From: a virus
IMG/VR virus record: IMGVR_UViG_3300048919_000356
Span: 1 to 29,840 of that record
Length of the DNA: 29,840 nt
Reading direction: 5' to 3' (one strand)
The notes beneath the pieces are model-generated. The model was not told the origin of the DNA, searched no databases, and worked only from the letters and a program-made list of their open reading frames with translations. This document shows, one piece after another, positions 15,479-29,467 of this stretch (the stretch's first letter is position 1; the number at the start of each line of letters is the position of its first letter). The translations under genes and the position numbers were made by a program.

Positions 15479-16012
15479 TCAGCCTCCTGTAGAGGTAGAG
15501 CCACCCGACGGGCTTACCCAACTTAGCTCTGGCAGGGGCAAGGAAGGCGAAGGGCTGGAGCTCGGCGAGGGGCTGGGAGTAGGCGTAAGGCTAGCCTCGG
15601 GAGATGGCTCCGGGCTAGGGCTGGCAACCACGGGAGGGGGCGTTGCCCGTTGCTGCGGAATCGCTGACGGCGTCCGTATCGTGCCGAGTCGTACCGGTAT
15701 TGTCGTCACTGTAAGGGCGTGTGTCGGCATGTCAGTGGCGAGGCCAGACGTCTCTATGGCTGTAGGTTGTGTCTGTGTCGCGTATGACGACGTCGCGATT
15801 GACGGCGGAACGTCAAGGGTTGGGGGCAGGGAAAAGGATAGCTGAAGTAGCAGGCCAGTTCCCGCAGCCGCACACGACAAGCCGGCGACGGCGAAGAATG
15901 AGGGGCTGGTGATCACCGCTCGAGTCTTGGCGAATCGACGGGGGCCGCGGTGGACGTGGCGGCGCTGAATGGGCAGCGTGGGGTTCGTTTGATCCGCCCG
16001 GTATGCTGGCAT
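15479..16012 (-). CDS. Membrane-anchored Pro/Ser/Thr-rich protein
   Basis: From ATG 16012 it has 177 residues: a basic N-terminus (RRHVHRGPRRFAKTR), one transmembrane helix (SPSFFAVAGLSCAAAGTGLLLQLSF, about 35-60) and a long Pro/Ser/Thr-rich extension full of PSPSPSP-type runs, probably outside the membrane. A GTG at 16030 with GGGAGG ten bases upstream is an alternative start. It is the first gene after the promoter at 16.1 kb and overlaps a palindromic operator at its start. Such stalks often span the cell wall; the role in lysis is not established. Confidence 0.6.
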   Translation of the reverse strand: MPAYRADQTNPTLPIQRRHVHRGPRRFAKTRAVITSPSFFAVAGLSCAAAGTGLLLQLSFSLPPTLDVPPSIATSSYATQTQPTAIETSGLATDMPTHALTVTTIPVRLGTIRTPSAIPQQRATPPPVVASPSPEPSPEASLTPTPSPSPSSSPSPSLPLPELSWVSPSGGSTSTGG

Positions 16013-16015
16013 ACC
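16000..16015. promoter_or_regulatory. Palindromic operator-like site GGTATGC-TG-GCATACC
   Basis: Perfect 7-bp arms around a two-base centre. One of five dispersed copies of GGWATGC-(TG/CA)-GCATWCC. It overlaps the proposed start of the first lysis-cluster gene, downstream of the late promoter. Confidence 0.55.
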
Positions 16016-16085
16016 CCGATCGCCACTCACCCGTTTTACGCCTCCCTGAGCGCCCCACCCCTCTAGGTGAGGCAAGGTTGTCACG

Positions 16086-16115
16086 ATCGTACGTCGACAA
16101 ATTACTCCTTGACAA
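16086..16115 (-). promoter_or_regulatory. Putative promoter of the lysis cluster (TTGTCA-18-TACGAT)
   Basis: -35 TTGTCA (16115-16110), 18-base spacer, -10 TACGAT (16091-16086), followed by a leader of about 50-70 bases. It lies just after the terminator of an early minus-strand gene and is the rightmost of the TACGAT promoters. Confidence 0.55.
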
Positions 16116-16189
16116 GGGGGATGACGGGCCGTGACAGGGTAATCACCATACGCAGAATGACGGCAAATATCGCACAACGTAACCACAAC

Positions 16190-16222
16190 GCTGCCCCTAT
16201 CACGTACTGTGACAGGGGCAGC
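16190..16222 (-). terminator. Terminator hairpin after the 16.2 kb zinc-finger gene
   Basis: GCTGCCCCT-a-TCAC, loop GTACT, GTGA-c-AGGGGCAGC: a 13-bp stem with one mismatch, directly downstream of the minus-strand gene ending at 16233. It separates this unit from the late promoter. Confidence 0.65.
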
Positions 16223-16232
16223 GCGTTCGGTG

Positions 16233-16418
16233 TCAAACCCACTCGATAACCTGTCGGCGGCAGCCCTTGCACAGCCATCGGATTTTCTCGATCAGATCGA
16301 CCTTTTGGACATCGTCGATCATGGTCCCGCAATGCCCGCACTCGAGGTGCTCGATTGCCTTGTCCTCGGGCCCGAAATAGGCATCGCGCTTATTCACTTC
16401 GTCAGGATCGCGCGTCAT
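16233..16418 (-). CDS. Small four-cysteine zinc-finger protein, leaderless message
   Basis: 61 residues with two CxxC pairs: LECGHCGTM (about residues 27-30) and WLCKGCRRQ (about 49-52), spaced as a zinc ribbon. The ATG lies exactly six bases after the -10 TATAAT, so no leader or Shine-Dalgarno can exist if that promoter is used. It forms a single-gene unit with its own promoter and terminator. A regulator or nucleic-acid-binding role is inferred from the zinc ribbon. Confidence 0.8.
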   Translation of the reverse strand: MTRDPDEVNKRDAYFGPEDKAIEHLECGHCGTMIDDVQKVDLIEKIRWLCKGCRRQVIEWV

Positions 16419-16424
16419 GGATCA

Positions 16425-16471
16425 ATTATATCCCCTCGCCCCGGGCATATCAAGATCAACTCGAAGATCTT
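16425..16471 (-). promoter_or_regulatory. Cassette promoter with AAGATCTT box (leaderless type)
   Basis: AAGATCTT (16471-16464), 10 bases, -35 TTGATA (16453-16448), 17-base spacer, -10 TATAAT (16430-16425), then six bases to the ATG. One of twelve promoters of this family in the window. Confidence 0.8.
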
Positions 16472-16501
16472 TCTCTGCCGTGTGGGGAGCAGGGGCGCGA
16501 G

Positions 16502-16539
16502 GAGGTGATCGGCTTTAGGAAAATTCAGCCGATCACCTC
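16502..16539 (-). terminator. Terminator hairpin after the 16.6 kb gene
   Basis: A perfect 13-bp inverted repeat, GAGGTGATCGGCT (16502-16514) and its complement (16527-16539), with a 12-base loop. It lies between the stop at 16553 and the next cassette promoter. Confidence 0.7.
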
Positions 16540-16552
16540 GCCCGTGCGTGGC

Positions 16553-16849
16553 TCAGTTGTGGTGGCAGCGGCTGTGATCATCCCCATCGTGGATGGGCTC
16601 GTTGCAGCACTGGCTGTAGCTCTGGTTGTACTCGTTGGGCGGCCCGGTGAGACCGCCGCACAGTTCGCAGTGGTAGGCGGCGTCACGGGCCGCGTTGCGT
16701 GCCTCGAGCTCGGCAGCCACCTTGTCCCATTCGCGGCGGGCCTTGAGCTCGGCAGTATCGGTGGCTGCAACAGCCTTCGCCTGCGCCCTACGGCACGCAG
16801 CACGCGCGGCCTTGGTGTTGTCGTGATCGCAGTTCGCGTGGTTTGTCAT
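16553..16849 (-). CDS. His-Cys module protein with additional zinc site, leaderless message
   Basis: 98 residues. The N-terminus MTNHANCDHDNTKAARAACRR is the shared H-x2-C-x-H-x9-C module found in five other proteins here. A charged helix follows, then a second Cys/His-rich part: YHCELCGGLTG, QCCNEP and HSRCHHN. Both parts probably bind zinc. The ATG is six bases after the -10 TATAAT, predicting leaderless translation. Function unknown; the Arg-rich helix next to the module would suit nucleic-acid binding. Confidence 0.75.
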   Translation of the reverse strand: MTNHANCDHDNTKAARAACRRAQAKAVAATDTAELKARREWDKVAAELEARNAARDAAYHCELCGGLTGPPNEYNQSYSQCCNEPIHDGDDHSRCHHN

Positions 16850-16855
16850 GCCTTA

Positions 16856-16903
16856 ATTATAGCCTACCCTGGGCGGCATGTCGAGGCTGGGCAGCAAGAT
16901 CTT
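16856..16903 (-). promoter_or_regulatory. Cassette promoter with AAGATCTT box (leaderless type)
   Basis: AAGATCTT (16903-16896), 11 bases, -35 TCGACA (16884-16879), 17-base spacer, -10 TATAAT (16861-16856), then six bases to the ATG at 16849. Confidence 0.8.
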
Positions 16904-16940
16904 TCCACACCAACGGGCGTGTGGGCGTCGTGGAGCGCCC

Positions 16941-16956
16941 CGTATGCCAGCATTCT
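16941..16956. promoter_or_regulatory. Operator-like palindrome copy (CGTATGCCAGCATTCT)
   Basis: Matches the consensus GGWATGC-(TG/CA)-GCATWCC at 14 of 16 positions. It lies 37 bases upstream of the AAGATCTT box of the 16.85 kb promoter, inside a larger imperfect inverted repeat (about 16911-16970). Confidence 0.5.
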
Positions 16957-17012
16957 GCCCACGCCCGTTACCCCGTCAGCGGGCCGTACAGGCTCATACC
17001 TCACCTGTCAGG

Positions 17013-17042
17013 GCCGTGCGCGCGGGGCAGGGCGCGCACGGC
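17013..17042 (-). terminator. Terminator hairpin after the 17.05 kb gene
   Basis: Perfect 11-bp inverted repeat GCCGTGCGCGC (17013-17023) with its complement (17032-17042) and an 8-base loop, directly after the minus-strand stop at 17051. Confidence 0.65.
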
Positions 17043-17050
17043 GGGCAAGG

Positions 17051-17353
17051 TCAGTTGTCGCGTGTCGGGTGGATCATGCGCACGGCACGGCATTCGTGAT
17101 CATCATCGTCGAAGCAGATCATGTAATCGACGAGGTGCACGGGGCACACGGACAGGTCGAGGCACGCGCGCGTGAGCAGTTCACGATCGGCGGCGTCGAG
17201 CGTGCGCGTCGATTCGATCGGCTGGTCGATGATCATCTCGCGGAGGTATTCGCGAAGATCGGTCATGTCGATCATCGGGTCAGTCGCGTCAGCGGCGTAG
17301 AAGGCGTCGATTTCGTCGATCAGTTCGGGCCTGTCGCGTTCGTTGTTCGTCAT
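17051..17353 (-). CDS. Acidic hypothetical protein, leaderless message
   Basis: 100 residues, strongly acidic: MTNNERDRPELIDEIDAFYA then MIDMTDLREYLREMIIDQP and VDYMICFDDDDHECRAVRM. No recognised family. The ATG directly follows GATATATT-TATCTC, which in other cassettes continues as CTCAACGAC before a leader; here the leader is absent and the ATG takes the position of the transcription start. It forms a single-gene unit with its own terminator. The strong acidity could fit a protein-interaction or DNA-mimic role, which is only speculation. Confidence 0.75.
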   Translation of the reverse strand: MTNNERDRPELIDEIDAFYAADATDPMIDMTDLREYLREMIIDQPIESTRTLDAADRELLTRACLDLSVCPVHLVDYMICFDDDDHECRAVRMIHPTRDN

Positions 17354-17359
17354 GAGATA

Positions 17360-17407
17360 AATATATCCCACGCGCGGCGATATGGCAAGGTGATCGAGCA
17401 AGATCTT
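17360..17407 (-). promoter_or_regulatory. Cassette promoter with AAGATCTT box (leaderless type)
   Basis: AAGATCTT (17407-17400), 11 bases, -35 TTGCCA (17388-17383), 17-base spacer, -10 TATATT (17365-17360), then TATCTC and the ATG. Bases from the box to CTCA match the leadered plus-strand copy at 17973-18020 closely. Confidence 0.85.
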
Positions 17408-17422
17408 TTCTCTCCGCCACAC

Positions 17423-17438
17423 CATATGCCAGCATTCC
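17423..17438. promoter_or_regulatory. Operator-like palindrome copy (CATATGCCAGCATTCC)
   Basis: Matches the palindrome consensus at most positions and lies 15 bases upstream of the AAGATCTT box of the 17.36 kb promoter. A partial box (GATCTTGC) follows further upstream at about 17450. Confidence 0.5.
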
Positions 17439-17532
17439 CGTCGGCAGCGATCTTGCTCCTACGCCCCGCTCAGGGCCGCCAGCCTCGTCCCTCGCCGGGG
17501 AGAGGGCGCCCCGTAGGACGCCCCCTCGGGAA

Positions 17533-17682
17533 TCAGCCGACGAGGATGATGATCCAGGCGGAGATGATCATGGTCAGGGCGACAATGAAGAACATGATCA
17601 CAGCCCCCATGCCCCCCTCGGCCTGGGCACGACGACGGGCAGCACGGCGGCTATGGCTGGCGGGCTTACGTGTTTTCGTCAT
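17533..17682 (-). CDS. Small single-pass membrane protein, leaderless message
   Basis: 49 residues: a very basic N-terminus (KTRKPASHSRRAARRRAQA) and one transmembrane helix (MGAVIMFFIVALTMIISAWIIILVG) reaching the C-terminus. The start is fixed by a promoter whose -10 ends six bases before the ATG. The basic head resembles the arginine-rich part of the His-Cys module but lacks the cysteines. An inner-membrane anchor with a nucleic-acid-facing head is possible; function unknown. Confidence 0.65.
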   Translation of the reverse strand: MTKTRKPASHSRRAARRRAQAEGGMGAVIMFFIVALTMIISAWIIILVG

Positions 17683-17688
17683 GCCCTT

Positions 17689-17718
17689 ACCTTATCCCGT
17701 CAGCCAGGCACATGGCAA
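17689..17718 (-). promoter_or_regulatory. Leaderless-type promoter without box (TTGCCA-18-TAAGGT)
   Basis: -35 TTGCCA (17718-17713), 18-base spacer, -10 TAAGGT (17694-17689), then AAGGGC and the ATG at 17682. Diverges from the promoter at 17758-17796. No AAGATCTT box is seen. Confidence 0.6.
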
Positions 17719-17757
17719 GGATAACTTTGGGCAAGGAGCCGTCACAGAAAATTACTG

Positions 17758-17796
17758 GGCAAGGGCCTTGCCACGTGCCGAGGCACGGGATATGAT
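17758..17796 (+). promoter_or_regulatory. Leaderless-type promoter with two palindromes (TTGCCA-17-TATGAT)
   Basis: -35 TTGCCA (17768-17773), 17-base spacer, -10 TATGAT (17791-17796), six bases to the ATG. GGCAAGG-G-CCTTGCC (17758-17772) overlaps the -35, and CGTGCC-GA-GGCACG (17774-17787) fills the spacer; both look like repressor sites. Confidence 0.6.
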
Positions 17797-17802
17797 GATG
17801 CC

Positions 17803-17952
17803 ATGAACAAAGCCCGCCGCCAGGCCATATCCGATGGATTTTGGCATCAGCCCACGACGATCTTCCTCTTCGCCATGTGGATCACCTTCTGCGTGCGCGT
17901 CGGGTCATGGCTCGGCTTCACCCTTGAGCTCTGGTTCCATCGCATGTTCTGA
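17803..17952 (+). CDS. Small membrane-associated protein, leaderless message
   Basis: 49 residues: basic start (MNKARRQAISDGFWHQP) then one hydrophobic, aromatic helix (TTIFLFAMWITFCVRVGSWLGFTLELWF). The start is set by a -10 box six bases upstream. A terminator hairpin follows within 12 bases of the stop. It lies back to back with another small membrane gene on the other strand. Function unknown. Confidence 0.65.
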   Translation: MNKARRQAISDGFWHQPTTIFLFAMWITFCVRVGSWLGFTLELWFHRMF

Positions 17953-17963
17953 TCTACATTGAA

Positions 17964-18001
17964 GCTGTGGCAAGGATCTTGCCCCGAATCCTTGCCACAG
18001 C
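17964..18001 (+). terminator. Terminator hairpin overlapping the next promoter
   Basis: Perfect 14-bp inverted repeat GCTGTGGCAAGGAT (17964-17977) and its complement (17988-18001), loop of ten. The right arm contains the -35 of the following cassette promoter and the left arm contains most of its box. Confidence 0.75.
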
Positions 18002-18020
18002 CTCGGGTATGGCGTATATT
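17973..18020 (+). promoter_or_regulatory. Cassette promoter with box (AGGATCTT; leadered type)
   Basis: AGGATCTT (17973-17980), 11 bases, -35 TTGCCA (17992-17997), 17-base spacer, -10 TATATT (18015-18020), then TATCTCAACGAC leader and AAGGAG. The box deviates by one base, where it is part of the overlapping terminator. Confidence 0.8.
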
Positions 18021-18048
18021 TATCTCAACGACAACGAAGGAGCCAAAA

Positions 18049-18321
18049 ATGACCGCCATCACCCTCCGCCTCTCGACCCCGATCACCGACACCCACCGTG
18101 ACCTCGACATCGACCTGGTGATCGGTGACGACACCAACCTCGACACCCTGCTGACCACCCGGGGCTTTATCCACCTGACCACCGAGGAGGGTGACGACGT
18201 CGACATGATCACCTACCGCCACCCCGTGCTCGGCGACGTCGACGTGATGGTGTGGCACGACACCCCCAAGGGCTTCATCCCCACCCTGACTGAGGGCCAG
18301 CTGATTGCCCTGCTCCCGTAG
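18049..18321 (+). CDS. Acidic protein, paralogue of the 27.55 kb gene
   Basis: 90 residues. It shares with the gene at 27550-27819 the order L-x-T-[RA]-[KR]-G-F, TEE-x-DD, Y, G-x-VD, VWH-x2-PKGF-x-P. The sequence has many Asp residues (VIGDDTNLDTLL, TTEEGDDVDMITY). No named family recognised. It is preceded by a typical leader (CAACGACAACGAAGGAG) and followed by a terminator shared with a convergent gene. The compact acidic alpha/beta sequence could bind a host protein; speculation. Confidence 0.8.
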   Translation: MTAITLRLSTPITDTHRDLDIDLVIGDDTNLDTLLTTRGFIHLTTEEGDDVDMITYRHPVLGDVDVMVWHDTPKGFIPTLTEGQLIALLP

Positions 18322-18330
18322 CCTCCGCCA

Positions 18331-18383
18331 GCCAGCCCCCGTCCACACCCTCATCTTTCGGGTGACATCGGGCGGGGGCTGGC
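18331..18383. terminator. Bidirectional terminator between convergent genes
   Basis: GCCAGCCCCCG (18331-18341) and its complement (18373-18383) form a perfect 11-bp stem; the 31-base loop holds a smaller CACCC/GGGTG pairing. It lies between a plus-strand gene ending at 18321 and a minus-strand gene ending at 18411. Confidence 0.7.
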
Positions 18384-18410
18384 GAGTGAGGTGGTAGCCT
18401 GCGGCGGGCC

Positions 18411-18728
18411 TCAGGCGGGCGTAGGCGTGTCGTCGCCCGGGCTCGGAATGCTGGCATTCCGGGCTTGCCCTACCCGCTCCTCGAGCAGCCTCGTGGCCTC
18501 GGTCAGCTTGTCCTGGGCGCTCCCGAATTCCTGGAAGCGTGAGGCCACCACCTGCGCGGCCCGCATGAGTGCCTCACCATCCGCCTGGTCGAGCAACAGC
18601 ACCAGCTGAGAGCCCTGTACGGCCTCCTGAAGAACCTCGGCAGTCTGGTAATCGGGGCAAACGACCCCGACCTTGCGGTTGCCCATGGTCCACACCACCA
18701 CGTGGGTGTAGGGCGTCACCGTGCCCAT
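18411..18728 (-). CDS. Hypothetical protein
   Basis: 105 residues. The first half is beta-type (THVVVWTMGNRKVGVVCPDYQTAEVLQEA, then LVLLLDQADG), the second half a long helix (AQVVASRFQEFGSAQDKLTEATRLLEERVGQ). No family recognised. ATG 18728 has AGGAGG eight bases upstream. It is the second gene of a two-gene unit from the promoter at 19.06 kb. An operator-like palindrome lies in its 3' end, encoding part of the tail. Confidence 0.7.
   Translation of the reverse strand: MGTVTPYTHVVVWTMGNRKVGVVCPDYQTAEVLQEAVQGSQLVLLLDQADGEALMRAAQVVASRFQEFGSAQDKLTEATRLLEERVGQARNASIPSPGDDTPTPA
18445..18460. promoter_or_regulatory. Operator-like palindrome GGAATGC-TG-GCATTCC
   Basis: Perfect 7-bp arms around TG; the best-formed copy of the dispersed palindrome together with that at 16000. 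It lies inside the 3' end of a gene, so it could act as a roadblock site rather than a promoter operator. Confidence 0.55.
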
Positions 18729-18731
18729 ACC

Positions 18732-19031
18732 CTAGCCCTCCTGCTTGGGCACGACGATGAACGTCTCCCCGGTCAGCTCGAGCTCTTCGTGATGGCTGCG
18801 AAACGTTGGTCGGCTGCGTCGCACCGCGGCCTGGAATTGGCGGCTCTTGACTTTCTCCGCGTGAGCCAGCTTCCGCCCGAGTCGCTGCACCTTCCTGCGG
18901 TTGGCCCTCGAGTCCGAGCCCCTCACCGGGGACTTGTCCGGCCCGGCCACAGGCTCCCACACCAGCCGATCCGCCTCGGGCCGAGCGCCCTTGGTGGATC
19001 CCTCCGACCGCATGAGCGCGCTGATCTTCAC
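18732..19031 (-). CDS. Basic hypothetical protein
   Basis: 99 residues starting VKISALMRSEGSTKGARP. The middle is rich in Arg and Lys (RANRRKVQRLGRKLAHAEKVKSRQFQAAVRRSRP), suggesting nucleic-acid binding, followed by a beta-type end (ELELTGETFIVVPKQEG). GTG 19031 with AGGGAG six bases upstream is preferred over ATG 19049, which has no ribosome-binding site. It ends three bases before the next gene. No named family. Confidence 0.6.
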   Translation of the reverse strand: MKISALMRSEGSTKGARPEADRLVWEPVAGPDKSPVRGSDSRANRRKVQRLGRKLAHAEKVKSRQFQAAVRRSRPTFRSHHEELELTGETFIVVPKQEG

Positions 19032-23876: not shown

Positions 23877-23911
23877 CGGCCAAGGCTGCACCCCCGCGCG
23901 ACACGTAGGAA

Positions 23912-23959
23912 AAGATCTTGCTCGATGTGTTGACAGTACCCCCTACGGGCCGGTATAGT
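23912..23959 (+). promoter_or_regulatory. Cassette promoter with AAGATCTT box (TTGACA-18-TATAGT)
   Basis: AAGATCTT (23912-23919), 10 bases, -35 TTGACA (23930-23935), 18-base spacer, -10 TATAGT (23954-23959). The closest of all cassette promoters to the sigma70 consensus, so probably the strongest. Confidence 0.85.
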
Positions 23960-24004
23960 CTTCACGACGCACCACCCACTGACCCCCACGAAAGGGAGCC
24001 CGAC

Positions 24005-24451
24005 ATGACCGAGCCCACCGACGCGCTGCTCGACGAGGTCGAGGAGATCGCCGTCGACGAGTCCGCCGAGACCGAGGCGGCTCCGAAGGCGAAGAAGGAG
24101 AAGGCGCCGGCCAAGCCGAAGATCGAGTTCGGTGCGCCGTGGCTCGCCGAGCACGTCAAGGAGGTCACCAGCCAGGAGCTCGACGCCAAGGGTGTGCGGA
24201 TGCTGCTGCGCAAGCTGAACTCCGAGGGCAAGCTCGGCGACCGTGAGCACGGCGCGCGGTATGACTTCACCGGCCCCGAGGACCCGCGTGTGATCGCCGT
24301 GGTCGACTCGGTCAAGGAGAAGGCCGCGAAGGCGTCCGAGCCGAAGGCACCTCGGGCGAAGAAGGCCCAGGGTGCGACGGCGTCTGCTGATGAGCCTGTG
24401 GTCGAGGACGAGGACGCCGTGGTCGAGGATCTCGACGATCTCGACGCCTGA
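24005..24451 (+). CDS. Putative DNA-binding protein with disordered acidic and basic tails
   Basis: 148 residues in three parts: an acidic, Lys/Ala/Pro-rich N-terminus (about 1-40), a folded core (EFGAPWLAEHVKEVTSQELDAKGVRMLLRKL, then ARYDFTGPEDPRVIAVVD, about 41-100) and a disordered tail ending in an acidic stretch EDLDDLDA. The core pattern 'L...VR.LLRKL.....RYDF....' is like small winged-helix proteins of actinophages and of the protein at 25509. High Lys/Ala/Pro content is histone-like. The strong promoter and terminator suggest high expression. Function inferred. Confidence 0.7.
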   Translation: MTEPTDALLDEVEEIAVDESAETEAAPKAKKEKAPAKPKIEFGAPWLAEHVKEVTSQELDAKGVRMLLRKLNSEGKLGDREHGARYDFTGPEDPRVIAVVDSVKEKAAKASEPKAPRAKKAQGATASADEPVVEDEDAVVEDLDDLDA

Positions 24452-24587: not shown

Positions 24588-24616
24588 TTGCAGAATCGGC
24601 TTGAGAGAGATAGGGT
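24588..24616 (+). promoter_or_regulatory. Second possible promoter (TTGCAG-17-TAGGGT)
   Basis: -35 TTGCAG (24588-24593), 17-base spacer, -10 TAGGGT (24611-24616), 35 bases upstream of the next gene. The GATAGGGTT -10 context resembles GATAGGTT of the cassette promoters. Confidence 0.4.
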
Positions 24617-24650
24617 TGCCTTAACACTGCATCACACCTAGGGACTCGAA

Positions 24651-24851
24651 ATGTTCACTCGCGCACAGCTCGACACCTTCACCGATCAGCAACTTGCCCT
24701 GATAGGTGACGCCCTTGAGCGGCATCACGAGGACGTTGCCGAGGAGCCTGACCAGTACGAGTGGTATACTCCAGCCGAGGTCGTTACAGCCGCTAACGAG
24801 ATCAACTTCGAGCAGCGCCGTCGCGCTGCTCTCGATGGGGAGTCCTCATGA
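24651..24851 (+). CDS. Small hypothetical protein
   Basis: 66 residues: MFTRAQLDTFTDQQLALIGDALERHHEDVAEEPDQYEWYTPAEVVTAANEINFEQRRR, helical and acidic. No strong Shine-Dalgarno is visible (GGGACTCGAA before the ATG). Stop overlaps the next start as ATGA, so the two genes are coupled. No recognised family. Confidence 0.65.
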   Translation: MFTRAQLDTFTDQQLALIGDALERHHEDVAEEPDQYEWYTPAEVVTAANEINFEQRRRAALDGESS

Positions 24852-25132
24852 TCGCTATCGGTGCCACCTTTGATCAAGTTTACTGGGCAGCCGTGGCAGT
24901 CGTTGCCATCTGTAAGACACAAGGGGTCGACCCGATCGAGCTGGCCCAGGCTCCCCTGGACGACGGCTACACCACCAACGAGATCAAGGTGTGGACTGGT
25001 GAGGCCCGGGACAACATGCTGGCCTGCCAGGCTACCACACCACGCGCGCTCGAGCAGATCGATTACACCCTAACCCTTGCCGATGCCGAGACCGTGCTGT
25101 GCTTCGTGACCTTGGTCGCCTCGGGTCGATAA
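24848..25132 (+). CDS. Small hypothetical protein
   Basis: 94 residues with a hydrophobic start (MIAIGATFDQVYWAAVAVVAICKTQGVDP) that is more likely a buried helix than a signal, then a polar helical part and a hydrophobic end (TVLCFVTLVASGR). No recognised family. Its stop TAA is the first part of the TAAAAGATCTT sequence of the next cassette promoter, so no terminator separates them. Confidence 0.65.
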   Translation: MIAIGATFDQVYWAAVAVVAICKTQGVDPIELAQAPLDDGYTTNEIKVWTGEARDNMLACQATTPRALEQIDYTLTLADAETVLCFVTLVASGR

Positions 25133-25180
25133 AAGATCTTGGCACTACGCCTTGACGACGCCTCGGGCATGGGATAGGTT
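25133..25180 (+). promoter_or_regulatory. Cassette promoter with AAGATCTT box (TTGACG-17-TAGGTT)
   Basis: AAGATCTT (25133-25140), 11 bases, -35 TTGACG (25152-25157), 17-base spacer, -10 TAGGTT (25175-25180), leader TATCTCAACGAC and GAGGAG before the ATG. Confidence 0.85.
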
Positions 25181-25207
25181 TATCTCAACGACACTGAGGA
25201 GCTCGAA

Positions 25208-25426
25208 ATGGCTAGCAAACTGGTTGCCCGCATGAAGATCCGCCAGCAGGCTCAGCCTTACATTAACGAGATCAACAACTCCCAGATTAACATCGCCAGC
25301 TGGCAGACATTGCCTCTGCCCGACGATGTTCGGGAGCCGATCGTCCGCGCCGTCGCGGAGCTCGAGGCTGCCAAAGCTTCGCTTGCTGAGGCGCTCGAGG
25401 CGGCGAATCGTTGGGAGATCGGCTGA
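25208..25426 (+). CDS. Small helical protein
   Basis: 72 residues: MASKLVARMKIRQQAQPYINEINNSQINIASWQTLPLPDDV, then a coiled-coil-like helix (AVAELEAAKASLAEALEAANRW). No recognised family. GAGGAG seven bases upstream. The C-terminal helix could serve for dimerisation. Its stop is followed directly by the next AAGATCTT box. Confidence 0.7.
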   Translation: MASKLVARMKIRQQAQPYINEINNSQINIASWQTLPLPDDVREPIVRAVAELEAAKASLAEALEAANRWEIG

Positions 25427-25427
25427 A

Positions 25428-25475
25428 AAGATCTTGAGGTCCTTCCTTGACCGACGCCGACACATGAGATAGGTT
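25428..25475 (+). promoter_or_regulatory. Cassette promoter with AAGATCTT box (TTGACC-17-TAGGTT)
   Basis: AAGATCTT (25428-25435), 11 bases, -35 TTGACC (25447-25452), 17-base spacer, -10 TAGGTT (25470-25475), followed by CATCTCAACG. Confidence 0.85.
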
Positions 25476-25508
25476 CATCTCAACGCACCAACGACCAGGG
25501 AGCCGAAA

Positions 25509-25817
25509 ATGACCACCGACGCCAAGGCCACCGCAAGCGAAGTCGCCGCGATGTTGGGCACGACCCCGAAGATCTTCCGTCGTTTCCTCCGCGACGAGAC
25601 CTCAACCTTCCGCCCAGTTGGCCAGGGTAAGCGGTACGAATTCGGCCCGCGTGACATCGCCGCGGCGAAGCGCCTGTTCCCGATCTGGCAGGCCGCCCAC
25701 ACCCGCAAGCCGAAGGGCGAGGCCGCAGTGCCCGCGCAGGACGGCCAGGCCCGCGCCGAGGCGCTCGACACCGCACTCAAGGCCGCTGGGCTTCACGTGA
25801 GCCAGCACGCCGCCTGA
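25509..25817 (+). CDS. Putative helix-turn-helix DNA-binding protein
   Basis: 102 residues. Residues 7-32 (ATASEVAAMLGTTPKIFRRFLRD) make a helix-turn-helix of the type used by excisionases and Lsr2-like C-terminal domains, followed by a small wing with GKRYEFGPRDIAAAKRLFP. The rest is a polar helix. Many actinophages carry several such small proteins; a histone-like or regulatory role is inferred. Followed by a strong terminator, so it is a complete one-gene cassette. Confidence 0.75.
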   Translation: MTTDAKATASEVAAMLGTTPKIFRRFLRDETSTFRPVGQGKRYEFGPRDIAAAKRLFPIWQAAHTRKPKGEAAVPAQDGQARAEALDTALKAAGLHVSQHAA

Positions 25818-25855: not shown

Positions 25856-25864
25856 TCGGCGGAA

Positions 25865-25912
25865 AAAATCTTGGCGACGTGCCTTGCCATCATCTCGGTA
25901 AAGGGATAGTGT
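25865..25912 (+). promoter_or_regulatory. Cassette promoter with variant box (AAAATCTT; TTGCCA-17-TAGTGT)
   Basis: AAAATCTT (25865-25872), 11 bases, -35 TTGCCA (25884-25889), 17-base spacer, -10 TAGTGT (25907-25912). One-base box variant that breaks the AAGATCTT palindrome; a weaker member of the family. Confidence 0.75.
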
Positions 25913-25957
25913 TACTTCAACGCCACCAACCAGGGGGCTGAGCCCGAGGAGGGCCAC

Positions 25958-26182
25958 ATGACTCACCACATCTTCGTTAACAAGACCTCCGCCGAATTGA
26001 TCGAGGCGTACAACTCGAATCACAACTCCTGGACGGTGCCCGCGCCGCAACTCGCCAAGGAAGGCGACGGGGTGCTCATGACCAGCAAGGATGGTGTTAA
26101 CTTCCTGTGCTGGGTTGCCGGGGTGCACGAGATCATCGCGCCAGGTCAGGCGCAGGAGATGACGATCCGCATCAGCGGTTGA
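25958..26182 (+). CDS. Small hypothetical protein
   Basis: 74 residues, beginning MTHHIFVNKTSAELIEAYNSNHNSW, then a beta-type part (GDGVLMTSKDGVNFLCWVAGVHEIIAPGQAQEMTIRISG). GAGGAGG lies five bases upstream of the ATG. No recognised family. A small beta-barrel-like fold is possible. Confidence 0.7.
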   Translation: MTHHIFVNKTSAELIEAYNSNHNSWTVPAPQLAKEGDGVLMTSKDGVNFLCWVAGVHEIIAPGQAQEMTIRISG

Positions 26183-26384: not shown

Positions 26385-26413
26385 TTGACACCCTCATGGC
26401 GCCCAGATACAGT
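26385..26413 (+). promoter_or_regulatory. Leaderless-type promoter without box (TTGACA-17-TACAGT)
   Basis: -35 TTGACA (26385-26390), 17-base spacer, -10 TACAGT (26408-26413), then CATCCC and the ATG at 26420. The same CAGATACAGT -10 context recurs at 29256. Confidence 0.7.
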
Positions 26414-26419
26414 CATCCC

Positions 26420-26899
26420 ATGACAACGACAACCGATCCCTGGGAGCCCCTGATGACCGAATATGGCTTTACCCCCGAGGAGCTTCGGGATGATCATTCG
26501 GCTCCCTTCCGTCACGACTGTGGTCACATGGTCGTTACGTGGCCCGAGACTGGGGTGCTCGAAGACGCCAACGATGATGGCCCGATGGGCACCGAGCACG
26601 AGTGCAGCCGCACTGACGACATCCCGGACTCTGTGGCTCCAACCCTCGCCGAGCTGCTCGCCAAGGTCAACGCTCTGATCCCGACCGAGCCTGACCACAC
26701 CTCCGAGCCCGGCGAGGCCCCTGGCTGGCCCAGCCCGGCCCGTGACCGCGTTCGGCAGCTCGAGCAGGACGTCGACCGCGAGATCGTCGAGCGAGGCACG
26801 ATCGCCGCTCCGCGCCGAGCGAACTCAAGCCACGCCAACTGCTCTCACCCTGCGACCAAGGCCGCGCGAGCCAAGTGCCGTCGCGATCGTAGCCGCTGA
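26420..26899 (+). CDS. His-Cys module protein (C-terminal copy), leaderless message
   Basis: 159 residues. The N-terminal half includes a Cys/His segment (FRHDCGHMVVTWPETGVLEDAN and GTEHECSRTDD) that may bind metal. The middle is helical and polar. The last 23 residues are the shared module SHANCSHPATKAARAKCRR. The ATG is six bases after the -10, predicting a leaderless message; an in-frame ATG at 26396 lies upstream of the predicted transcription start. A terminator follows. Function unknown. Confidence 0.75.
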   Translation: MTTTTDPWEPLMTEYGFTPEELRDDHSAPFRHDCGHMVVTWPETGVLEDANDDGPMGTEHECSRTDDIPDSVAPTLAELLAKVNALIPTEPDHTSEPGEAPGWPSPARDRVRQLEQDVDREIVERGTIAAPRRANSSHANCSHPATKAARAKCRRDRSR

Positions 26900-26930: not shown

Positions 26931-26945
26931 TCGAGGAGTGGCTAA

Positions 26946-26993
26946 AAGATCTTGACCTCGATCCTTGAGATCACCTGAGGTGTGGGATATCGT
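26946..26993 (+). promoter_or_regulatory. Cassette promoter with AAGATCTT box (TTGAGA-17-TATCGT)
   Basis: AAGATCTT (26946-26953), 11 bases, -35 TTGAGA (26965-26970), 17-base spacer, -10 TATCGT (26988-26993), leader TGTCTCAACGACGAACACAA and GAAGGAG. Confidence 0.85.
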
Positions 26994-27027
26994 TGTCTCA
27001 ACGACGAACACAACGAAGGAGCTCAAA

Positions 27028-27417
27028 ATGACCACCACCGCCCCCAGCCACCGCATCTGCCTTGACTGCGACGCCAGGCTCACCCGAAAGAACCACCACG
27101 CGGTGGGCCTGTCCCTCTGCGATTCCTGCGCCGAGCGGGCGGGCCACGAGAACGCCCACGAAGATGGTCACCACGCCGGGACCTTTGTTGAGGGCTGCCC
27201 GATGTGCGACGATGCCGAGGCCCCGGTCGAGATCATCCTGCCCTCCACCGATGGCAGCCGTGACCACATCGTGTCCGAGCCGACCGGGCGTAAGAACATC
27301 GACCACTCCGCGTGCCCGCACCCCGCGACCAAGGCGGCCAGGGCAAAGTGCCGCAAGGCTATCGCTCAGACCATGGCTGAGATCAAGGGCCTGAGCAACA
27401 TTCACGACCACGAGTGA
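27028..27417 (+). CDS. Double zinc-ribbon protein with C-terminal His-Cys module
   Basis: 129 residues. An N-terminal ribbon has ICLDCDARL (CxxC near 11-14) and LCDSCAERAG (CxxC near 31-34), followed by GHENAHEDGHHAG and a third CxxC, GCPMCDD. This 'CDsCae.AG.ENaH.DG.H....CP.C' pattern recurs in actinophage early proteins. Near the C-terminus stands the shared module DHSACPHPATKAARAKCRK, then a short helix. Probably several zinc ions bound. Complete cassette with promoter, leader and terminator. Function unknown. Confidence 0.8.
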   Translation: MTTTAPSHRICLDCDARLTRKNHHAVGLSLCDSCAERAGHENAHEDGHHAGTFVEGCPMCDDAEAPVEIILPSTDGSRDHIVSEPTGRKNIDHSACPHPATKAARAKCRKAIAQTMAEIKGLSNIHDHE

Positions 27418-27458: not shown

Positions 27459-27465
27459 TGGATAA

Positions 27466-27513
27466 AAGATCTTGGCCGAATGCCTTGAGACGAGGTGTGG
27501 CATGGGGTATATT
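27466..27513 (+). promoter_or_regulatory. Cassette promoter with AAGATCTT box (TTGAGA-17-TATATT)
   Basis: AAGATCTT (27466-27473), 11 bases, -35 TTGAGA (27485-27490), 17-base spacer, -10 TATATT (27508-27513), then TATCTCAC and a leader with AAGGAG. Confidence 0.85.
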
Positions 27514-27549
27514 TATCTCACACCACAACGACAAGCCAAGGAGCCCGAA

Positions 27550-27819
27550 ATGACCACCACCACAAAGGCCGTGACCATCCTCCTCTTCGGCCTCAACTTC
27601 CAGGGCAGCCAGGAGCTCGAGATCATCGTCGACCTTGACGACCTGCATGACGTGCTCACCGCGAAGGGCTTCGGCTACAGCTCGACCGAGGAGGACGACC
27701 ACTGCGACATCGAGTCGTACTACGCGGCGAACGGCCAGAACGTCGATCTGTACGTGTGGCACATCGTGCCCAAGGGCTTCTCGCCAATCAATGCGCAGCC
27801 CCTCGAGATCCTCGCGTAA
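27550..27819 (+). CDS. Acidic protein, paralogue of the 18.05 kb gene
   Basis: 89 residues. Shares with the 18049 gene the motifs LTAKGFGYSSTEEDDHCDIESYY, NVDLYVWH and PKGFSPI in the same order and spacing. Starts MTTTTKAVTILLFGLNFQG. The acid-rich middle (DLDDLHDV, EEDDHCDIES) is stronger than in the paralogue. Both sit in leadered cassettes with TATATT -10 boxes, so gene and cassette may have been copied together. No named family. Confidence 0.8.
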   Translation: MTTTTKAVTILLFGLNFQGSQELEIIVDLDDLHDVLTAKGFGYSSTEEDDHCDIESYYAANGQNVDLYVWHIVPKGFSPINAQPLEILA

Positions 27820-27925: not shown

Positions 27926-27981
27926 TACCCCGCAGCGCGACGCCACACAGGGCGTCTCCGGCTGTCAGGCAATTCGGCTAA

Positions 27982-28028
27982 AAGATCTTGCCATAACCCT
28001 TGAGACACCCTCAGGCGTGAGATACGAT
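27982..28028 (+). promoter_or_regulatory. Cassette promoter with AAGATCTT box (TTGAGA-17-TACGAT)
   Basis: AAGATCTT (27982-27989), 10 bases, -35 TTGAGA (28000-28005), 17-base spacer, -10 TACGAT (28023-28028). The leader deviates from the others (AAACAACAACAACC) but is still CAAC-rich, and ends with GAGGAG. Confidence 0.8.
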
Positions 28029-28064
28029 GGTACCATCGAAACAACAACAACCGAGGAGCCCACC

Positions 28065-28550
28065 ATGACCACCGCCACGATCGCCGCCCACGACATGTCC
28101 GACGAGGCGCTGACCCTCGCCCTCCACACCGCCGAGGAGATCGTCGCAGGCCGCATGCCCGCTGGTTCGTTCGACGTCAGCGACGTCATCACCAGCCACC
28201 GCGCCCTTGCCGCCGAGGCCGCCCGTCGTCGTCGCCAGCCGATCGTGAAGGAGATCACCGTGACCGAGCCCCAGGACCGCGCCACCAGCCACATCACCTG
28301 CACCCACCCTCGCACCAAGGTCGCGCGTGCCGCCTGCCGTCGGGCTCGTGCCCGTGCCGCGGAGCCCCAGGCGCCCGCGTACTCGCTGATCAAGACCGAG
28401 GCGCAGCTCGCCGAGGCCCGCTCGAAGATCGCCGCGAAGGGCTGCCAGGGCGAGGTCAAGTCGGGGGCTCGTAAGGGTCAGCGTTGCGGGCGTCCAACCG
28501 CCCAGGGCCAGATCGTTTGCTCCGGCCACGCCCGAAGCTTCAAGATCTAA
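28065..28550 (+). CDS. His-Cys module protein with a second C-terminal Cys/His domain
   Basis: 161 residues. Residues 1-60 form a helical domain (MSDEALTLALHTAEEIVAGRMP, VITSHRALAAEAARRRRQP). The shared module TSHITCTHPRTKVARAACRRARARA follows in the middle (about 75-100). The C-terminal 35 residues read GCQGEVKSGARKGQRCGRPTA and IVCSGHARSF, the 'C....k.G.rkGqrCgrp....G..vC..H' pattern of a small zinc domain (DUF5763-like). Highly basic overall, so RNA or DNA binding is likely. Flanked by its own promoter and terminator. Confidence 0.75.
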   Translation: MTTATIAAHDMSDEALTLALHTAEEIVAGRMPAGSFDVSDVITSHRALAAEAARRRRQPIVKEITVTEPQDRATSHITCTHPRTKVARAACRRARARAAEPQAPAYSLIKTEAQLAEARSKIAAKGCQGEVKSGARKGQRCGRPTAQGQIVCSGHARSFKI

Positions 28551-28612: not shown

Positions 28613-29230
28613 ATGAAAGCCGTACCGACCGAGCTGGAAAGCCTCGAGTCGAGCCGCCAGCTCGTCCGATTCGCCCTCGCGCTGGGTGTGGCCGCGTCGT
28701 TGGCGGCGAACGTGCTCCATGCCGACACCAACGTGATCTCTCGCATCATCGCCGCGTGGCCGCCTACCGCACTGATCGTCACGGTTGAGATCATCACGCG
28801 CATTCCCGGGCGAAGCGGGGTGATGAGCGGAATCCGCATCGCCGCAACGTCGATCGTAGCAGCCATCGCCGCCTGGGTGTCATACTGGCACATGGCTGGT
28901 GTGGCTCGTCGGTACGGCGAGACCTACATCAGCGCGCACATGATCCCGTTCTCGGTCGATGGGTTGATCGTCGTGGCGTCGATCTCTTTGGTCGAGGTGA
29001 ACCGACGACTCGCTGTGTTGCTCACGGCTGAGAGCGTCGTAGAGGCGCCTCAGATTGACACTGACGCACCGAATAACGTCCCGCAGATGATTGCTCAGGT
29101 GACGCCTCGAGAGCCCTCACAGCGCGTCTCACACCGTGTGGGCAACCACCAGCACTGCGATCATGACAACACCCGTGCAGCTCGGGCTGCGTGCCGTCGC
29201 ACTCGGGCCGAGGCACTTACGCCCGCCTGA
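28613..29230 (+). CDS. DUF2637 membrane protein with C-terminal His-Cys module
   Basis: 205 residues with four membrane helices: LVRFALALGVAASLAANVL, PPTALIVTVEIITRI, AATSIVAAIAAWVSYWHMAGV and IPFSVDGLIVVASISLVEVNRRLAVLL. The layout and the motif YISAHMIPFSVDGLIV match DUF2637, a family common on actinobacterial plasmids and phages, related to plasmid-spread proteins. The function is unknown. Unlike usual members, the cytoplasmic tail ends with the shared module NHQHCDHDNTRAARAACRR. GGGAG lies seven bases before the ATG. It has no promoter of its own. Confidence 0.85.
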   Translation: MKAVPTELESLESSRQLVRFALALGVAASLAANVLHADTNVISRIIAAWPPTALIVTVEIITRIPGRSGVMSGIRIAATSIVAAIAAWVSYWHMAGVARRYGETYISAHMIPFSVDGLIVVASISLVEVNRRLAVLLTAESVVEAPQIDTDAPNNVPQMIAQVTPREPSQRVSHRVGNHQHCDHDNTRAARAACRRTRAEALTPA

Positions 29231-29232
29231 CC

Positions 29233-29261
29233 TTGACCCTCTTGCCCGACCCAGATACAGT
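29233..29261 (+). promoter_or_regulatory. Putative promoter without box (TTGACC-17-TACAGT)
   Basis: -35 TTGACC (29233-29238), 17-base spacer, -10 TACAGT (29256-29261) in the context CCAGATACAGTC, which matches the promoter at 26385-26413. Here a leader with AAAGGAG follows. Confidence 0.65.
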
Positions 29262-29293
29262 CGAACTACGACACCGAGCCAAAGGAGCAAATC

Positions 29294-29467
29294 ATGAACG
29301 CCAGGGCTGGGCACTACGGAGGCGAACGCGACAACCGCGGGGGCTACCGCGACCGCTGGGAGCGTGACAGCAGCCGCCGCCACGGGCGGCAGGTCGTGCG
29401 TCGCGAGCTTCGCGACATCCACCGCCGGGTTCGCCTGCAAGGCATCCAAGCCGCTGGAGATCGATGA
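29294..29467 (+). CDS. Small Arg/Gly-rich protein
   Basis: 57 residues with 16 Arg: GHYGGERDNRGGYRDRWERD, then RRHGRQVVRRELRDIHRRVRLQGIQAAG. The RGG- and RD-like composition suggests RNA or DNA binding and little fixed structure. AAAGGAG six bases upstream of the ATG. Its stop overlaps the next start as ATGA. Confidence 0.65.
   Translation: MNARAGHYGGERDNRGGYRDRWERDSSRRHGRQVVRRELRDIHRRVRLQGIQAAGDR

Follow-up and report, generated by a model that had tools for sequence, protein, structure and literature searches.

Leaderless genes, whose messages begin at the start codon, are common in Actinobacteria, where they are marked by a TANNNT box about 12 bp before the start (PMC3160421), and in mycobacteria an ATG or GTG at the first transcribed base (+1) suffices (PMC4633059; here and below, papers are cited for parts of their text). 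Among phages, the cluster O mycobacteriophage promoters PL1, PR2 and PL2 are predicted to be SigA-like and to place +1 on the first base of the start codon (PMC4351075), and a promoter with +1 at the start codon has been predicted for gene 90 of Adephagia (PMC11373665). Short repeats named SAS and ESAS stand at many gene starts of cluster K phages, and the ESAS hold SigA-like promoters (PMC3203893, PMC11373665). Among the matches listed from the open-licence literature were these predictions for cluster O and Adephagia, and no genome-wide phage study of leaderless genes. Here we describe a set of small-gene promoters in the IMG/VR virus record IMGVR_UViG_3300048919_000356, all 29,840 bases of which were analysed (the window). 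These promoters appear to follow one design and to give rise to two kinds of message, leaderless and leadered, a reading to which we assign a probability of about 0.82.

A second IMG/VR record, IMGVR_UViG_3300026078_000032 (G001; 59.8 kb, 59,815 bases), is 99.99% identical to the window, with one mismatch in 18,457 bases, one in 11,510 and a short divergent stretch at the contig end. Judged by this identity, G001 is the same phage cut differently, and it is not independent of the window. Where the two part, window positions 18458-18762 are replaced at the end of G001 by an alternative stretch of about 430 bases, on which a further candidate leaderless gene lies (59614, minus strand). A search for close relatives that would allow conservation to be compared gave none besides G001, and one weak match, Huwbert.

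The units of this phage resemble actinobacterial leaderless genes in their signal, in its distance from the start and in the lack of a Shine-Dalgarno (SD) sequence (PMC3160421, PMC4633059), but they are phage-borne, built on one repeated promoter design, confined to ATG and interleaved with leadered copies. Whereas three promoters are named in the cited part of the cluster O study (PMC4351075), this phage has 13-14 leaderless and 11 leadered promoters, counted in G001. Like the cluster K phages it repeats short sequences at many gene starts, but here the repeats are the promoters themselves, and the 13-bp SAS, GGGATAGGAGCCC, has no match with two or fewer mismatches in the window. The kind is already known; as far as the open-licence literature shows, what is new is how many such promoters there are, their alternation with leadered versions of one promoter design and a common 5'-end signature.

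Promoter design and the two start forms

The original prediction named six genes whose ATG follows the -10 box by exactly six nucleotides. Its coordinates were all verified, by direct reading and by script, and the spacing is exact in six of six genes, the start codon lying about 12 bp past the first T of each TANNNT. On the minus strand, 17365-17354 reads TATATTTATCTC and is followed at once by ATG at 17353; on the opposite strand, 18015-18026 reads TATATTTATCTC again, followed by AACGACAACGAAGGAGCCAAAAATG and an ATG only at 18049. Three exact copies of TATATTTATCTC occur in the window, at 17354 (minus) and at 18015 and 27508 (plus). The predicted units are as follows, the box being an upstream element treated in the next section and ORF standing for open reading frame.

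16233-16418, minus strand: leaderless gene, 61 amino acids (aa); -10 TATAAT 16430-16425, -35 TTGATA 16453-16448, box GAAAGATCTTC 16473-16463, 6-nucleotide (nt) gap, ATG 16418
16553-16849, minus strand: leaderless gene, 98 aa, CxHxxTKxARAxCRR family; -10 TATAAT 16861-16856, -35 TCGACA 16884-16879, box GAAAGATCTTG 16905-16895
17051-17353, minus strand: leaderless gene, 100 aa; -10 TATATT 17365-17360, -35 TTGCCA 17388-17383, box AAAAGATCTTG 17409-17399
17533-17682, minus strand: leaderless gene, 49 aa; -10 TAAGGT 17694-17689, -35 TTGCCA, spacer 18, no box
17803-17952, plus strand: leaderless gene, 49 aa; -35 TTGCCA 17768-17773, -10 TATGAT 17791-17796, no box in register
26420-26899, plus strand: leaderless gene, 159 aa, C-terminal CxH motif; -35 TTGACA 26385-26390, -10 TACAGT 26408-26413, no box
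17971-18321, plus strand: leadered unit; box CAAGGATCTTG 17971, -35 TTGCCA 17992, -10 TATATT 18015-18020, predicted +1 18027, SD AAGGAG, ORF 18049-18321
23910-24451, plus strand: leadered unit; box 23910-23920, -10 TATAGT 23954-23959, ORF 24005-24451
24611-24851, plus strand: leadered unit, no box; -10 TAGGGT 24611-24616, ORF 24651-24851, weak SD
25131-25426, plus strand: leadered unit; box 25131, -10 TAGGTT 25175, predicted +1 25187, ORF 25208-25426
25426-25817, plus strand: leadered unit; box 25426, -10 TAGGTT 25470, ORF 25509-25817 (helix-turn-helix protein, candidate regulator)
25863-26182, plus strand: leadered unit; box AAAAAATCTTG 25863, -10 TAGTGT 25907, ORF 25958-26182
26944-27417, plus strand: leadered unit, CxH family; box 26944, -10 TATCGT 26988, ORF 27028-27417
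27464-27819, plus strand: leadered unit; box 27464, -10 TATATT 27508, ORF 27550-27819
27980-28550, plus strand: leadered unit, CxH family; box 27980, -10 TACGAT 28023, ORF 28065-28550
29256-29467, plus strand: leadered unit, no box; -10 TACAGT 29256, ORF 29294-29467, weak coding score
29630-29840, plus strand: leadered unit, CxH family; -10 TAGGTT 29630, ORF from 29668 past the window end, no box in register

Both forms are present, as had been proposed, but the division into one leaderless and one leadered gene set is loose: 18049 is leadered amid leaderless genes and 26420 leaderless amid leadered ones. The leadered genes 18049-18321 and 27550-27819, which both have the exact core TATATTTATCTC, resemble paralogues by eye.

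The spacing of six stands out sharply. Counting sites that combine a -35-like hexamer (4 of 6 matches to TTGACA), a TANNNT box and an ORF of 35 aa or more that opens with ATG, we found six in the window at spacing 6 and between none and two at each of the remaining spacings up to 40, zero included; 200 first-order Markov copies of the window gave a mean of 0.125 spacing-6 sites and a maximum of two. Over the 59.2 kb of G001 scanned there were 13 such sites, while spacings outside 5-7 averaged 0.63 and never exceeded three. GTG starts in G001, counted separately, gave no spacing peak, and the leaderless starts here are ATG only; that an ATG stands at +1, within the ATG-or-GTG rule, was demanded by the searches themselves. 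A consensus scan of 15500-18700 returned eight promoter-like sites (mean 0.7 in shuffles), five of which belong to the genes listed above, and missed the promoter of 17682. One further leaderless promoter, at G001 12423, has the -10 CATAAT and precedes a 126-aa ORF, the start of which a simple gene caller placed 111 nt downstream of the likely one.

Leaderless and leadered promoters were also drawn together by a matrix trained on ten leadered promoters only and scanned over both strands of G001. Its 21 best positions, a cut picked after the list had been seen, comprised the ten training sites and 11 others: eight ATGs at spacing 6 (G001 11719, 8078, 13143, 13550 and 58624 on the plus strand; 58198, 57263 and 58527 on the minus strand), one leadered promoter (5624) and two unassigned positions. 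Scores of at least 10 were reached at 34 positions in G001 and at 9, 14, 13, 11 and 15 in five random copies. The predicted +1, the seventh base past the -10, is preceded by a pyrimidine in 13/13 leaderless and 11/11 leadered units; an A stands there in 10 of the 11 leadered units and, by construction, in the leaderless ones. The promoters have a sigma-70/SigA layout, with a -35 near TTGACA, 16-18 nt and a -10 TANNNT. The claim that the two forms share a promoter design and one predicted +1 was thus supported by sequence. Hairpins at or below the 5% point of the null precede seven of 24 units, more than the roughly one expected, but this falls short of a terminator hairpin ahead of every unit.

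The two forms differ in their translation signals. Predicted anti-SD pairing of -7.2 kcal/mol or below, the 5% point of random sites, was found at 11 of 12 leadered starts and at 0 of 13 leaderless ones, which lack an SD before the start. They share a 5'-end signature, defined as ACGAC, CAACG, AACGA or ACAAC in the first 22 nt (strings picked after inspection), which occurs in five of 13 leaderless messages, eight of 11 leaders, none of 12 ORF starts of leadered genes and one of 64 other ORF starts. Because it is found in leaderless messages and in leaders and rarely at other ORF starts, the signature tracks the 5' end of the message and not the start of the ORF. The second codon is ACG or ACA in 9/13 leaderless genes, 0/12 leadered genes and 2/64 others, and ATGACGACAACGA and AACGACAACGA, written out, differ solely by a TG. 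The SD set of leaderless starts includes 59614 (minus) and omits 12423, the signature set the reverse, and both 12-member sets of leadered starts include G001 13936, whose promoter lies outside the 11 leadered promoters. Mycobacterial leaderless starts showed no downstream preference (PMC4633059), and the signature here may therefore stem from transcription or ancestry and not from translation.

An upstream box and Streptomyces rRNA loci

Many of the promoters have in common a box, AAAAGATCTTG, at a distance of 43-44 nt upstream of the -10, measured to the first base of that hexamer. It is in register before six of 13 leaderless and eight of 11 leadered promoters (12423 was added from the genome-wide box list), and the 14 top box matches in the genome all lie ahead of such promoters, six leaderless and eight leadered; the box matrix was typed from seven leadered boxes, and only the leaderless matches count as independent support. 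Of the next 13 matches listed, one precedes a leaderless start, at a different distance. The string AAGATCTTG occurs nine times, compared with 0.23 expected, and the distance from box to -35 is 8-10 nt at the 14 sites and 10 nt at ten of them. The helix-turn-helix protein encoded at 25509-25817, itself under one of these promoters, is a candidate binder of the box. Four 10-bp palindromes lie near the leaderless cluster, ATGCTGGCAT or ATGCCAGCAT, each present twice in the genome (window 16003, 16944, 17426 and 18448; base composition predicts about 0.03 of each form), and could be operators or terminators.

Pattern scans for the phage box beyond this genome returned mostly scattered sites. The bacterial scan (box plus CTTGNC) gave at least 116 stretches, mostly from unrelated taxa, and the viral scan with the box at least 120; among the matches listed, viral and bacterial together, 24 of 244 were promoter-like, mostly in scattered taxa and probably by chance. 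Three Streptomyces and one Actinomadura match among those listed had GTTGCC[A/C]CGGAGCC in common after the TANNNT, and in one of these four the Rfam start of 16S ribosomal RNA (rRNA) lies about 630 nt downstream. Two further matches with Actinomycetes in their titles were not promoter-like and were dropped.

In 61 Streptomyces genomes, AAAAGATCTTG-N(7-10)-CTTGNC was present in six, and AGATCTTGACAG followed by TTGAC and then TANNNT in 15, once each; reversed-pattern controls in both searches gave no match. The patterns constrained the box distance and not the rRNA context. Of six loci fetched, five had exact AAAAGATCTTG, 10-11 nt before TTGAC, and a 16S start motif followed 579 and 642 nt downstream in two, the other four being stretches of 1.8-1.9 kb, too short to show it. 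The AAAAGATCTTG upstream of 16S rRNA in these Streptomyces regions is identical to the phage box. The phage promoters are thus like those of Streptomyces 16S rRNA operons in having AAAAGATCTTG about 10 nt before the -35 (10-11 nt before TTGAC in Streptomyces), then TANNNT, but the Streptomyces sites have ACAG after the box and precede rRNA, whereas the phage units precede protein-coding ORFs. From this sequence likeness, we read the box as a promoter element common to the phage and to Streptomyces rRNA genes.

Paralogues and other phages

The phage has at least nine members of a small-protein family with the motif H-x2-C-x-H-x2-T-x3-R-A-x-C-R, common to eight aligned proteins (the CxH family; window 16553-16849, 26420-26899, 27028-27417, 28065-28550, 28613-29230 and 29668 to the end, and G001 12435, 13562 and 13936). 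The motif stands at the extreme N-terminus in the leaderless members 16849 and G001 13562, in the leadered members 29668 and G001 13936 and, by eye, in the leaderless G001 12435, as in the paralogues MTNHANCDHDNTKAARAACRR (leaderless) and MTTHANCTHPATKAARATCRR (leadered) and the further leaderless member MTTSHANCTHDATKTARAACRR. Leaderless protein starts such as 16849 are supported by this match of their N-terminus to leadered paralogues, and the mixture within the family led us to reject the idea that leader class tracks protein family. For the leaderless G001 11731, a distant homologue (25.7% identity, E = 5e-6) in Microbacterium phage Pumpernickel is annotated from an ATG 6 nt past TATGCT, with a -35 that is poor by eye, while SD-like leaders precede the homologues in Saguaro, Ligma and Perlina. 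Together with the mixed CxH family, these homologues indicate that leader status seems to change within families.

The same spacing peak recurs in two isolated Microbacterium phages, which would be good laboratory material: Pumpernickel (NC_073468) has 22 sites at spacing 6 (mean 1.82 and maximum 6 at other spacings) and Huwbert (OR521080) has six (mean 0.5, maximum 3). Eight other comparison genomes had 0-2 sites at each of spacings 6 and 7, given here in that order with the mean at other spacings in brackets: lambda, 2 and 1 (0.42, none of those spacings exceeding 2); Ligma, 1 and 2 (0.08); Xkcd426, 1 and 1 (0.05); Firecracker, set against the cluster O predictions, 0 and 2 (0.11); Saguaro, 0 and 1 (0.03); CrimD, 0 and 1 (0.29); and Perlina and P1312, 0 and 0 each. 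The scan covered the first 60 kb of P1312, Ligma, Saguaro and Xkcd426, the first 166,130 bases of Pumpernickel and all of the other genomes. The small excess in some GC-rich comparison phages may represent a few leaderless promoters in each.

Strict leaderless promoters number 15 in Pumpernickel, six in Huwbert, seven in the contig G002 and 19 in the last 40 kb of G003. This 146-kb phage contig has 20 strict sites in all (TTGAC-N18-TANNNT-N6-ATG); its final 13 kb contain 18, and 17 of these 18 are on one strand. Ten IMG/VR contigs selected for having matches all contained at least one strict site, and the reversed-pattern control gave one in all, in G002. Among the matches listed in the strict scans, an ORF of at least 60 aa followed 105 of 130 spacing-6 and 67 of 121 spacing-9 sites; on contigs of at least 55% GC the fractions among the matches listed were 16/21 and 15/16, so the difference comes from low- and mid-GC contigs. 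IMG/VR scans with GATANNNTNNTCTCATGAC (106 stretches) and with the CAACGAC form (22 stretches) gave mostly chance matches, with some likely promoters on unrelated contigs. Pumpernickel, Huwbert, G002 and G003 have leaderless promoters like those of this phage but no terminase match to it; among twelve records tested for such a match only G006 had one, a weak one, and G003 had none. Leaderless single-gene promoters thus appear, from their sequences, to occur in several unrelated phages, this one included.

Core genes place this phage nearest to actinophages. Seven of ten long ORFs scanned match phage families (capsid, head protease, portal, terminase, endolysin and primase/helicase, or an unknown phage family) and three match none; numerous small ORFs lie on the right side of the window. 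The terminase is 49.7% identical to that of Streptomyces phage Xkcd426 and 48.4% to that of Thermobifida phage P1312, the capsid 46% to that of Streptomyces phage Dagobah, and the top rows for the primase are mycobacteriophages (33%). This tailed phage likely has an actinobacterial host.

Two message forms and what may set them

We propose that many small genes of this phage would run as separate units under host-type (sigma-70/SigA-like) promoters of one design: often the box AAAAGATCTTG, then a -35 TTGMCA or TTGAGA, usually 17 nt, a -10 TANNNT and a start at the A six nucleotides on. Where the bases from +1 are ATG, the message would be leaderless and the ribosome would start at its 5' end; where they are others, often AACGAC, an A/C-rich leader of about 20-40 nt with an SD would result. 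Transcription would be by the host housekeeping sigma factor from the predicted +1, and the two classes would be activated together, while the leader would act on translation or decay alone. The arrangement would most likely have arisen by repeated copying of promoter-gene units, with a start codon gained or lost at +1.

Several points weigh against this picture. Because the gene caller favoured spacing-6 starts with a bonus, the starts that it picked are not independent; coding scores are weak for some leaderless ORFs (12924 in G001); and 59614 (minus) sits in the stretch that differs between the assemblies. The box is missing from its register at seven of the 13 leaderless promoters, one of which has a weaker box at a different distance, and at three of the 11 leadered ones. 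SD-like pairing of -5.8 to -6.0 kcal/mol upstream of the ATG at four of 13 leaderless genes would be usable if transcription began farther up. The real +1 and leaderless translation are predictions from the DNA, and the actinobacterial host is assigned by relatedness, while nine of ten capsid rows shown are non-actinophage, mostly Streptococcus and Vibrio phages. A single phage in two nearly identical contigs also provides no evolutionary replication of these loci.

The chances are about even that leader status is neutral, a product of unit copying and drift at +1 that is tolerated as actinobacteria read both forms. The mixed CxH paralogues fit such drift, as do the G001 11731 homologues, leaderless-type in Pumpernickel and with SD-like leaders in Saguaro, Ligma and Perlina, and the 5'-end signature common to A--ACGACAACGA and ATGACGACAACGA; the exact spacing and the codon-2 bias (9/13) suggest instead that selection acts on the 5' end. 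A more specific scheme, which we consider unlikely, is that a host rRNA promoter upstream element (AAAAGATCTTG) was spread over small genes and that a TG after the +1 A sets leader status within a shared 5' element, ATGACGAC giving a leaderless message and AACGAC a leader. Under that scheme a single regulon would feed two translation routes, and the leaderless share could persist when leadered initiation is blocked.

The original prediction held that leader status might set the timing or survival of translation during infection. Timing found no support: both classes share the -35, the -10, the +1 context and often the box (in register at 6/13 and 8/11), so they look co-transcribed and transcriptional timing is unlikely to be what separates them; a role in survival is a guess. 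In one form of the idea, leaderless messages would remain translatable when stress or the late stage of infection impairs 30S initiation. Leaderless and leadered initiation do differ in their requirements (PMC4633059, PMC9031893), and with a promoter design common to both classes any difference would be post-transcriptional. Paralogues in both classes make class independent of protein family, however, and in mycobacteria leaderless translation is described as comparably robust to leadered (PMC4633059), with an efficiency similar to that of one tested leader and lower predicted transcript production, weaker translation being given as an alternative model (PMC7148126). We find such a switch distinctly improbable.

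Least probable is that the -10-like boxes are chance or AT-rich spacers and the true transcripts start upstream, giving leadered genes without an obvious SD: several sites have weak SD-like pairing and two of six genes have in-frame ATGs farther upstream, before or inside the promoter (17425 for 17353 and 26396 for 26420), but the spacing peak is single and sharp, the -35 is in register, as is the box in about half of the cases, and an upstream start would require a second promoter past the visible one.

The box shared with Streptomyces rRNA promoters offers a testable idea for strong phage transcription and a hint at the host group. Leaderless and leadered genes that stand under one promoter design, some of them paralogous, form natural pairs in which the effect of a leader becomes measurable with the promoter unchanged. 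Small actinophage genes may also be missed or mis-started where an SD is expected, as the 111-nt shift by the gene caller exemplifies.

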